Source: Rubeoparvulum massiliense
GTDB taxonomy: Bacteria > Bacillota > Bacilli > Rubeoparvulales > Rubeoparvulaceae
Direction: 5' to 3'
Assembly: GCF_001049895.1 (NCBI RefSeq)
Contig: NZ_CVPE01000003.1
Coordinates: 372,001 to 436,000 of the forward strand
DNA length: 64,000 nt
Below, piece after piece: positions 10,161 to 13,716 of the stretch (the stretch's first letter is position 1; every line of letters starts with the position of its first letter). The notes under the pieces were generated by a model. It had not been told where the DNA came from, ran no database searches, and saw only the letters and a program-made list of their open reading frames with translations. The translations under genes and the position numbers were made by a program.

Positions 10161-11918
10161 TTATTCTGTCACAAGCATGAGCATATTCTGAATAAAAGGC
10201 CGCGCTTGTGGATTCTTCGGATCATAGTACACAAGCAAGAGGGTCGGTGCCATTTCAACCTGTCCAGACTCCAGGTACTTGGCAAGATTGAAGGGCAACC
10301 GTTCCACCATGGTATGCTTATGGAGCTGTTCCTCCGTTAATTGGTATTGAGCAAATTCGGGGGATAGAAGCGCTGGCTTATCCGCTAATAATTGCAGTAA
10401 AGCGCTCTGCTCTCCTTTACTCATGGAGAATTCCCACCATGTCTTCCGCGGCTTCTGCTTGTAATGGATGAAATAATCATACTTCATCAAGCCATGCCAT
10501 ACCTCAGGATGCTGCGTCTTTCGTGTCATGAGGAATTGCTCCAACCGTTGATATAAATCTTCTAGCTGATGACCAATCCTTCCCCAACCATTGGCCTCCC
10601 AGTAATCGCCGAGCTCCTGAAAGAAATCAAAGGGAGATGGGAATTCCACCTGGGTTAAGTAAAGAATGGTAGTATCCATAAAGTGTAGATTCCAATATTT
10701 CTCTAGCATCTCCTCCACCCGCTTAATCCGCACCACGTCGCCAAATGAAAGAATGTCATTCTCAAGCATCTCATAAGGTGCATGCTCCATATAACGATAC
10801 CCGTACTGCTCTGCTTGATTCCGTAGACCGGTTCCACGAAGCATCTTGAGAAAGCCTAGTTGTAGTTCCTCTGGCTCAAAGGCAAAGACATCATTGAAGG
10901 TTTTACGGAGCGATGCATAATCCTCTTCTGGTAAGCCAGCAATTAAGTCGAGATGTTGCACGACCCGTCCACTCTCCTTAATTCGCATCACCGTATTCGT
11001 TAGCTTGGCAAAATTTTGACGGCGCTGCACGAGCTCATTGGTTCTTTCATTGGTGGATTGAACCCCGATCTCAAAGCGGAAAATCCCGGGCGGTGCATTC
11101 TCCGTGAGATAATCAATAATCTCTGGGCGAAGAATATCCGCTGTTATCTCAAATTGGAAGATGCAACCTTGATGATTCTCCACCAAAAATTTAAACATCT
11201 CCATGGCATAATCGCGGTTGATATTAAAGGTACGATCAAGGAACTTAATGGTTCTCGCCCCGTTTTGAATCAAAAAGAGAAGCTCCTCTTTCATCATCTC
11301 TAGAGGAAAATAACGCACGCCTACCTCTGTGGAGGAGAGACAGAATTGACAAGAGAAGGGACAACCACGGCTTGTCTCCACATAGGTAATTCGTTGTGGA
11401 AGCTGTGCCACATCTTCTGGAAAGCGATAGGGAGAAGGGATAGTACTCAGGTCTAGCTTGCTGGTAGGTGGCTTTACCATAGGCTCACCTTGAACACGGT
11501 AGCCGATCCCAGTTAGACTTGCCAAATCACGTTTTCCATCTAGTCCTCGCAACAGTTCCTTAAAGGTCTGCTCCCCTTCTCCAATGATGATATAGTCTGC
11601 TTCGGGGATCCGCTGAAGCCAATGCTCCACATCGAAGGAGACCTCAGGCCCACCTAAGAGAATGGTCACCTGAGGTAAGACTTTTTTCAAGGCTTGAACC
11701 ACCTTGATGGTCTCTTCAATATTCCATATATAACAGCTAAAGCCCACTACATCGGGCTTCTGTTCGTAGAGATCCGTAACAATATAAATTGTTGGATCCT
11801 TGATGGTATATTCCGCCATCCGTACTGAATACTCTGGCTCAGCATAGGCCTTCAGGTAGCGTAAGGCCAGACAGGTATGGATATACTTGGCGTTTAATGT
11901 TGCCACTGTAATATTCAT
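10161..11918 (-). CDS. B12-binding radical SAM protein with C-terminal DUF4080
   Basis: The N-terminal cobalamin-binding-like fold (about 1-140: LGGPEVSFDV, IIGEGEQTF) is followed by a radical SAM core with VETSRGCPFSCQFCLSS, the CxxxCxxC that holds the 4Fe-4S cluster. A C-terminal region has the features of DUF4080 proteins. The DxHxxG cobalamin-coordinating motif is not evident, so cobalamin may bind base-off without a His ligand or not at all. ATG 11918 is chosen because GAAGGA lies 7-8 bases upstream; earlier ATGs overlap that site. Family members are often annotated as methyltransferases, but the substrate is unknown. It is the first gene of the block with yhaO and yhaN. Confidence 0.8.
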   Translation of the reverse strand: MNITVATLNAKYIHTCLALRYLKAYAEPEYSVRMAEYTIKDPTIYIVTDLYEQKPDVVGFSCYIWNIEETIKVVQALKKVLPQVTILLGGPEVSFDVEHWLQRIPEADYIIIGEGEQTFKELLRGLDGKRDLASLTGIGYRVQGEPMVKPPTSKLDLSTIPSPYRFPEDVAQLPQRITYVETSRGCPFSCQFCLSSTEVGVRYFPLEMMKEELLFLIQNGARTIKFLDRTFNINRDYAMEMFKFLVENHQGCIFQFEITADILRPEIIDYLTENAPPGIFRFEIGVQSTNERTNELVQRRQNFAKLTNTVMRIKESGRVVQHLDLIAGLPEEDYASLRKTFNDVFAFEPEELQLGFLKMLRGTGLRNQAEQYGYRYMEHAPYEMLENDILSFGDVVRIKRVEEMLEKYWNLHFMDTTILYLTQVEFPSPFDFFQELGDYWEANGWGRIGHQLEDLYQRLEQFLMTRKTQHPEVWHGLMKYDYFIHYKQKPRKTWWEFSMSKGEQSALLQLLADKPALLSPEFAQYQLTEEQLHKHTMVERLPFNLAKYLESGQVEMAPTLLLVYYDPKNPQARPFIQNMLMLVTE

Positions 11919-12080
11919 GATCATCATCCTTCGGATATTTTTCAGAGCATTTTTCTTTCAGTTTAGCCTTTTTCTACGAGAAGTCAAAATAGCAGGACTT
12001 CACGCCCATTCCTTTGCAGAATTAATTATTATACAATCAGATGAAAAGGGTGGTCAAAGCTCCCCATAAGGGCGTGATCG

Positions 12081-12149
12081 ATGATGAAAAATAATACTCA
12101 ACCCAATAATCACTGCCATTTACACAGGAGATTCAAAGAGGTTCGCTGA
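12081..12149 (+). CDS. Candidate regulatory leader peptide of hutH (22 codons)
   Basis: Short frame starting ATGATGAAAAAT, preceded by AAGGG (12067-12071) at 9 bases. Codons 11, 13 and 15 (12111-12113, 12117-12119, 12123-12125) are CAC, CAT and CAC, three His in five codons. The stop TGA (12147-12149) lies at the top of the 5' arm and loop of the terminator hairpin that follows. The placement (His cluster, then a stop inside a terminator, then a histidine-degrading gene) is what a translation-controlled attenuator would show. No homologue is known to me; this is a prediction from position and composition. Confidence 0.45.
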   Translation: MMKNNTQPNNHCHLHRRFKEVR

Positions 12150-12165
12150 GAAGCGAACCTTTTTT
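12139..12165 (+). terminator. Intrinsic terminator (attenuator) upstream of hutH
   Basis: A perfect 9-bp stem AGGTTCGCT / AGCGAACCT (12139-12147, 12152-12160) with a GAGA tetraloop and a T run to 12165. It lies 34 bases before the hutH start with no gene to terminate except the short leader frame, so it probably controls read-through into hutH. B. subtilis hut also uses an upstream terminator, opened by HutP with histidine, but no hutP lies in this window. Confidence 0.8.
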
Positions 12166-12198
12166 CGTGCCGCTTTGCCATGCTAAAGGAGGAATAAA

Positions 12199-13716
12199 AT
12201 GGAGAAGCAAAGCATTCAGTTAAATGGAAAGGATCTATCCTTGGAACAATTTGAACAGGTTGTCCGGAATGGCGTAGCTGTCCAATTGCATCCCAATGCC
12301 ATCATCGCGATGAATCGTTCTCGACAGCTGGTGATGCAATGGCATCAAGAAGGTCGAAGAATCTATGGCATTACTACAGGCTTTGGCAAGTTTAGCGACC
12401 AGATTATCTCTTCTGCAGAAACAGATCAGCTTCAAATCAATTTAATCCGTAGCCATGCCTGTGGTGTTGGCAATCCCTTCCCAACAGAAGTAGTCCGGGG
12501 GATGATGCTATTACGGGCTCAAGCGTTGGCCCAAGGCTTTTCCGGAATTCGCGTGGAAGTGGTTCAGCTTCTGTTACAAATGCTCAATCTACGGATCCAC
12601 CCCATCATTCCATCACAGGGATCATTAGGAGCCAGTGGCGATTTAGTTCCCTTAGCACATATGGTTCTACCTATGCTGGGTGAAGGGCAAGTAGAATGGC
12701 AGGGAACCCTCTACGCTGCCAAGGATGCTCTTGAACAGAATCAGCTCCAACCCATCCAGCTTCAGGCGAAGGAGGGCTTAGCCTTAATCAATGGGACACA
12801 GACCATGACATCCCTAGGTGCCCTAGCAGTGTTGGATGGTGAACGGGCGATTCATACAGCCAATCTCATCGCTTCGTTGACCATCGAAGCACTACGGGGT
12901 ATTCCTGCTGCTTACCACCCCTTTGTAGGGCACTCACGTCCTCATCCCGGTCAACGCTGGGTGGCAGAACAGCTTCTTCAGTACCTCAAGGAAAGCGAAC
13001 GGATCACTCAACCAGGGGAATTGCGAACGCAGGATGCCTACTCACTACGTTGTATTCCCCAAGTCCATGGCGCTTCTTGGGATGCTCTTCAGCATGTGAA
13101 GCAAGTGATCCAAATTGAATTAAATAGTGTAACGGACAATCCTCTCATCGACCCCTTTGAAGAACAGGCCATCTCAGCAGGCAATTTTCATGGCCAACCT
13201 GTGGGACTAGCCTTAGATTATTTGGCCATTGCCCTCGCAGAGTTGGGGAATATTTCAGAACGGCGTACTGAACGCATGGTCAACCCTCAGCTCAGCCAGC
13301 TACCTGCATTTCTCACTGATCATGGCGGACTCCACTCTGGGTTGATGATTCCTCAATATGTTGCAGCCGCGCTGGTTGCAGAGAATAAGCTATTAGCCAG
13401 TCCCGCAACAGTAGACTCCATTCCATCTTCTGCCAACCAGGAAGACCATGTAAGCATGGGAACCACTGCTGCCCGGAAGCTGTATCGTCTCCTTGATAAT
13501 CTGTGGCATATCCTTGCCATTGAGTATCTTGTAGCATGTCAGGCCATCGATTTCCAAACAGGGCAGCTAGGTAAAGGGAGTAGCCGTGCCTATGAACAGC
13601 TCCGTGCTCAGATTCCCTTTGTTGAAAAGGATCGTGTATTATCTCAAGACATGAAAGAGATTGCCCAGATGATTCGAAGTAGGCATTTTCTTAAGAAAAT
13701 CGGTATAATAGAATAG
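12199..13716 (+). CDS. hutH: Histidine ammonia-lyase
   Basis: First enzyme of histidine breakdown: L-histidine to urocanate and ammonia. The MIO prosthetic group forms from Ala145-Ser146-Gly147 in SQGSLGASGDLVPLAHM. The catalytic Tyr loop RRIYGITTGFG is at 53-63, and the SVTDNPL, FHGQPVG and E-rich helix motifs of the aromatic amino acid lyases are present. 505 residues is the family length. SD AAAGGAGG lies before ATG 12199. The other hut genes (hutU, I, G, M) are not here, so urocanate breakdown must be encoded elsewhere or urocanate is an end product. Tyr ammonia-lyase or aminomutase activity is less likely but cannot be excluded by eye. Confidence 0.92.
   Translation: MEKQSIQLNGKDLSLEQFEQVVRNGVAVQLHPNAIIAMNRSRQLVMQWHQEGRRIYGITTGFGKFSDQIISSAETDQLQINLIRSHACGVGNPFPTEVVRGMMLLRAQALAQGFSGIRVEVVQLLLQMLNLRIHPIIPSQGSLGASGDLVPLAHMVLPMLGEGQVEWQGTLYAAKDALEQNQLQPIQLQAKEGLALINGTQTMTSLGALAVLDGERAIHTANLIASLTIEALRGIPAAYHPFVGHSRPHPGQRWVAEQLLQYLKESERITQPGELRTQDAYSLRCIPQVHGASWDALQHVKQVIQIELNSVTDNPLIDPFEEQAISAGNFHGQPVGLALDYLAIALAELGNISERRTERMVNPQLSQLPAFLTDHGGLHSGLMIPQYVAAALVAENKLLASPATVDSIPSSANQEDHVSMGTTAARKLYRLLDNLWHILAIEYLVACQAIDFQTGQLGKGSSRAYEQLRAQIPFVEKDRVLSQDMKEIAQMIRSRHFLKKIGIIE

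Follow-up and report, generated by a model that had tools for sequence, protein, structure and literature searches.

The window, a 64,000-nucleotide stretch of the Rubeoparvulum massiliense genome, carries hutH, which encodes histidine ammonia-lyase, the enzyme that begins histidine breakdown (12199–13716, plus strand; TIGR01225 and PF00221); its product scores 663 bits against TIGR01225, for which the cut-off is 539. The gene stands alone in the window, and hutU lies on another contig (L238, C6:256500–264500). The hutH Shine–Dalgarno sequence, AAAGGAGG (12185–12192, plus strand), is invariant in 17 relatives. Upstream of it lies a leader open reading frame of 22 codons, MMKNNTQPNNHCHLHRRFKEVR (12081–12149, plus strand), which starts at the ATG at 12081–12083, has a second ATG at 12084 and is preceded by its own Shine–Dalgarno sequence, AAGGG (12068–12072, plus strand), 8 nt 5′ of the ATG and with a duplex energy of −4.9 kcal/mol. 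Codons 11, 13 and 15 of this frame encode histidine within the stretch CAC TGC CAT TTA CAC (12111–12125, plus strand; CAC at 12111, CAT at 12117 and CAC at 12123), so that three codons in five specify the amino acid of the pathway, and the last of them begins 16 nt 5′ of a terminator stem.

That stem belongs to an intrinsic terminator (12139–12165, plus strand), recognized from its sequence and fold, in which the arms AGGTTCGCT (12139–12147) and AGCGAACCT (12152–12160) form 9 bp around a GAGA loop (12148–12151) and are followed by a T run to 12165. The TGA stop codon of the leader frame (12147–12149) falls within the stem and loop, and the region 12040–12200 folds at −44.3 kcal/mol (z −2.9). 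All of these elements (the 22-codon frame, its AAGGG, the three histidine codons and the TGA in a 9-bp GAGA-loop terminator) had been described in an initial annotation and are confirmed in the sequence; its distance of 34 bases between terminator and hutH was near the measured values of 38 nt from the end of the hairpin and 33 nt from the end of the T run to the hutH ATG (12199). Because the gene upstream of the leader (10161–11927) is on the minus strand, the plus-strand terminator belongs to the hutH leader, and a terminator serving that neighbour is ruled out. Reading of the sequence by eye gives TACAAT (12032–12037, plus strand) as a possible −10 element of the leader promoter, although it is weak, has no good −35 and is absent from the output of a promoter consensus scan. 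When the 110 nt 5′ of the stem are shuffled 20,000 times with their dinucleotide composition preserved, a frame that is led by a Shine–Dalgarno sequence, open into the stem and furnished with at least three histidine codons arises in 0.95% of trials, odds that make the leader of the window, taken alone, suggestive rather than conclusive.

The absence of hutP from the window, already pointed out in the initial annotation, extends to the whole genome (97% complete), in which HutP (PF09021) had no match while the Bacillus subtilis positive control did; a HutP-dependent hut antiterminator was rejected on this basis. A T-box or riboswitch was likewise rejected, as the leader has no Rfam match and the only matches in the whole window are two tRNAs. 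The same leader does not recur at the two other loci that we considered in this genome: no comparable terminator leader was seen upstream of the unlinked hutU, and the region upstream of the histidine biosynthesis operon hisZ-hisG-hisD-... (L239, C6:353500–361500) has no leader peptide, terminator or T-box. Because hisD is retained, the host can probably make histidine.

Leader frames across Bacilli

We compared hutH leaders across the class Bacilli and beyond, in a set whose genomes all lie outside the order of the host, and chose the start of each frame solely by Shine–Dalgarno energy and openness. A frame with a Shine–Dalgarno sequence and an ATG that is open into the terminator was found in 31 of 55 leader clusters, against 6.2 expected from dinucleotide shuffles (z 10.9), and such frames with at least one histidine codon account for 19.3 of the 55 clusters, against 2.7 in shuffles. 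The HutP-less genomes in which the frame recurs fall under nine family labels. In nearly all Brevibacillaceae (label f22), a terminator at the expected place is accompanied by a Shine–Dalgarno sequence (GYGRGGA), an ATG and a frame open into the stem; the Shine–Dalgarno sequence and the ATG are near-invariant and their flanks have diverged. These observations strongly support the conservation, in Bacilli that lack HutP, of a leader frame that runs into the hutH terminator, the layout seen in the window.

The encoded peptides include MVHIHRHCHDNQIYIWPRG (Brevibacillus dissolubilis, whose leader, L032/L141, is the same as that of genome G098), MRKRRRHPRQLHRHDRATGLGTDS and MPRQMQAYTFSSNHIHAFERGVRI in Brevibacillaceae; MRVHHCYWDEQFHRSALLNKRLCGS in Paenibacillus; MQPHRRRKVQPHIGVPGREIR and MRPHSRRILQPHIGERAAG in family f48; MKVSKTPTIQSHIPLLKKGLCGSE in f17; MNRCSRTTEHRPTIKGLHGR in f13; and MGGCPHPWRISEKGSITGIG in f2. 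Four of them (MVHIHRHCHDNQIYIWPRG, MRKRRRHPRQLHRHDRATGLGTDS, MRVHHCYWDEQFHRSALLNKRLCGS and MQPHRRRKVQPHIGVPGREIR) are independent histidine-rich leaders. The host stretch 3′ of the terminator (TTTCGT...TGCTAAAGGAGGA) resembles its Brevibacillus counterpart, which suggests that the host and Brevibacillus leaders share common descent. Of 59 core-family leaders, 47 have their stop codon within the hairpin; in several Brevibacillaceae, and in L121, L128, L131, L138 and L149, the frame continues across the hairpin without stopping in it. The peptide is otherwise poorly conserved, apart from a recurring [Q/N]-x-H-[I/R] stretch (QSHI, QPHI, QLHR, QFHR and QVHR).

Among hutH loci with a leader terminator, 53 of 63 HutP-negative genomes have the frame and none of the 10 HutP-positive ones does (Fisher 3e-7; 7e-5 by taxon label), with the caveat that hutP itself occupies part of the tested stretch in HutP-positive genomes. 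HutP and the leader frame are thus mutually exclusive in this sample. A single HutP match occurs among the 39 Brevibacillaceae genomes, in G401, an assembly with 7% contamination.

Histidine codons and RNA structure

In the comparison of orthologues that the initial annotation had proposed, the frame and the terminator are conserved; the enrichment of histidine codons is modest, at about 1.7-fold. The leaders have 40 CAY codons in frame, compared with 22.6 and 23.8 in the two alternative frames (p 0.007, or 0.017 without the host genome), and with coarser clustering (68%) the test is not significant (p 0.14). In-frame histidine codons peak 12–17 nt before the stem, at 11.2 against 3.3 and 6.7 for the other frames; for a wider interval of 7–20 nt, frame permutation gives p 0.011. 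Because a ribosome reaches about 12 nt beyond the codon held in its A site, codons at 12–17 nt would be the last at which a stalled ribosome spares the stem. At the TGA of the host leader, by the same geometry, it would cover both arms of the terminator.

Loss of the histidine codons from relatives that keep the terminator had been named in the initial annotation as evidence against histidine control, and this is in part what we see: 13 of 59 core-family leaders retain the frame and terminator and have no histidine codon before the stem. Six Brevibacillaceae leaders (L119, L125, L129, L131, L139 and L121) keep the Shine–Dalgarno sequence, the ATG and the terminator in this state, and such leaders are natural tests of histidine as the signal. 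In family f30, the leaders of L111, L114 and L112 are longer and carry QVHRP or NVHRLP some 75 nt 5′ of the stem, a different spacing in which the stall geometry fails. Also in f30, a two-histidine leader frame in L123 apparently continues in frame into hutH, which would extend the protein at its N terminus, with no stop in a terminator.

At the nucleotide level, the motif CAAYCRCAUA survives in leaders whose frame no longer decodes it as histidine (L121 and L179), and this persistence outside the histidine reading frame points to a role for the RNA itself. Minimum free-energy folds predict an upstream hairpin (12067–12122, plus strand) in which 12067–12078, containing the leader Shine–Dalgarno sequence, pairs with 12109–12122, containing the first two histidine codons, and similar pairings are predicted in Brevibacillus and f17. 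Such a fold might explain the retention of CAAYCRCAUA, and we hypothesize that it could hide the leader ribosome-binding site. More energy is needed to open that site than in shuffled sequences (for 31 leaders, combined z 3.6; 2.15 for the host leader, 3.1 and 2.9 for the Brevibacillus leaders L134 and L143, and 2.2 for L172), although many leaders have no extra sequestration and the covariation of the hairpin is weak, with one compensated pair in ten sequences. Conserved structure in an alignment of 18 sequences consists only of the terminator, whose stem covaries at the equivalent place in relatives, and a small hairpin at the hutH Shine–Dalgarno sequence. A conserved antiterminator was rejected, as no mutually exclusive pairing appears in the host fold or in the consensus of the 18 leaders; this fits direct blocking of the stem by the ribosome.

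Candidate mechanisms of hutH control

The leader frame and its position are strongly supported by the comparison of genomes. From them we infer, at roughly even odds (about 0.5), that hutH has a transcription attenuator governed by translation, which stands in for the HutP antiterminator. The frame would be translated from its own ribosome-binding site and enter the intrinsic terminator just before hutH. Judging from geometry and the analogy with pyrBI, a ribosome at the end of the frame would occupy the stem and prevent it from folding, allowing polymerase to read into hutH, and a ribosome held at the histidine codons, typically 12–17 nt before the stem, would leave the stem free and permit termination. 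When charged histidyl-tRNA is short, histidine would then not be degraded. Dependence on histidine is the least certain of these steps. In the host and some relatives, pairing between the leader ribosome-binding site and the histidine region may additionally limit leader translation or pause polymerase. The initial annotation had proposed this inversion of attenuation, and it is partly supported: the conserved frame into the terminator, the position of the histidine codons and the lack of a conserved antiterminator agree with it; the sensing of histidine is less secure.

Kinetics bear on any such scheme. In Escherichia coli, translation lowers the efficiency of a terminator placed in the first 100 bp of a frame by only about 10%, except where polymerase pauses (PMC4824070). 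Because early-frame terminators are so little suppressed by translation, the hutH leader would require polymerase to pause, perhaps at the upstream hairpin, or the ribosome to arrest. The second option keeps alive an alternative of the TnaC type, in which free histidine, sensed by the nascent peptide, arrests the ribosome at or near the stop inside the terminator and switches hutH on. An arrested ribosome would remove the kinetic difficulty, regulation in this direction is apt for a catabolic gene, and both the stop codon inside the hairpin in most core-family leaders and the recurring [Q/N]-x-H-[I/R] stretch are in its favour. TnaC-type arrest requires fixed residues and spacing, however, and a conserved peptide of that kind was rejected: the spacing between histidine and stop is variable, the stem encodes the C-terminal residues in differing frames, the frame traverses the hairpin in the five leaders named above, and only the short stretch is conserved. 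We consider this alternative unlikely.

The same low standing applies to control at the initiation of leader translation rather than at the histidine codons, with the frame still opening the terminator and the frequency of leader translation set by an RNA hairpin, in which the Shine–Dalgarno sequence pairs with the CAAYCRCAU region, or by an RNA-binding protein. The costly opening of the ribosome-binding site, the retention of the nucleotide motif in two reading frames and the existence of histidine-free leaders would all follow, but the scheme leaves the in-frame excess and position of histidine codons unexplained, and it is weakened by the sparse covariation of the hairpin and by the many leaders without extra sequestration. 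A chance open reading frame, with the terminator under an unrecognized protein or acting as a plain constitutive attenuator, is very improbable: odds of about 1% for the leader of the window alone are low yet not negligible genome-wide, but recurrence in nine HutP-less family labels and absence from HutP-positive genomes speak against it.

Returning to the attenuator read by the ribosome, we tentatively extend it, at somewhat less than even odds, to a widespread class of leaders in HutP-less Bacilli that would invert amino-acid attenuation. In this class the ribosome itself would be the antiterminator, and starvation for histidyl-tRNA, read at histidine codons about one ribosome half-length before the stem, would turn catabolism off; the leader would have replaced HutP, or been replaced by it, in different families.

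Comparison with known systems

One close counterpart is the hut antitermination system of B. subtilis, with which the host locus shares the gene, a leader terminator in the same place and an expected rise of expression with histidine; it differs in that the host genome has no HutP match. Classical his and trp attenuators, such as the E. coli his leader, also have a short peptide, led by a Shine–Dalgarno sequence and containing histidine codons, before an intrinsic terminator. They control biosynthesis, whereas the hutH frame stops within the stem, has no antiterminator that we could find and is inferred to act with the opposite sign. In classical attenuators, more than 20 bp separate the leader stop from the terminator, which keeps the ribosome from interfering with the hairpin (PMC4824070), and candidate histidine-leader attenuators in the Bacillus cereus group, Peptostreptococcaceae and Erysipelotrichales combine runs of histidine codons with a competing antiterminator (PMC9413887).

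As in TnaC and SpeFL, the hutH leader peptide precedes a gene of amino-acid degradation that the amino acid would be expected to switch on. TnaC depends on conserved residues for arrest and works by way of Rho, unlike the hutH leader, which has a poorly conserved peptide and an intrinsic terminator.

In the literature searched, which covered HutP, HisR and biosynthetic histidine-leader attenuators and lay largely outside subscription journals, we found no description of a translated hutH leader, and within that literature the hutH leader is a variation on ribosome-mediated attenuation not described before. If the proposed mechanism is true, amino-acid attenuation would operate in reverse on a catabolic gene: the ribosome would act on an intrinsic terminator directly, with neither an RNA nor a protein as antiterminator, and would do so in Gram-positive bacteria, in which transcription is commonly believed to run ahead of translation. 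The mechanism would also suggest how the many Bacilli that lack HutP control hutH, and the leader would be a natural test of interference between ribosome and terminator at defined distances.

A precedent for such interference is E. coli pyrBI, which senses UTP through polymerase pausing and in which, as in the hutH leader, the frame extends into the terminator; the likeness here is one of geometry only. The pyrBI terminator lies inside the leader frame and is suppressed by a closely following ribosome, according to the account in PMC4824070, which cites Roland 1988. The pyrBI leader gene is 135 bp long; that of hutH is 69 bp, stands before an amino-acid catabolic gene and places its histidine codons just before the stem.
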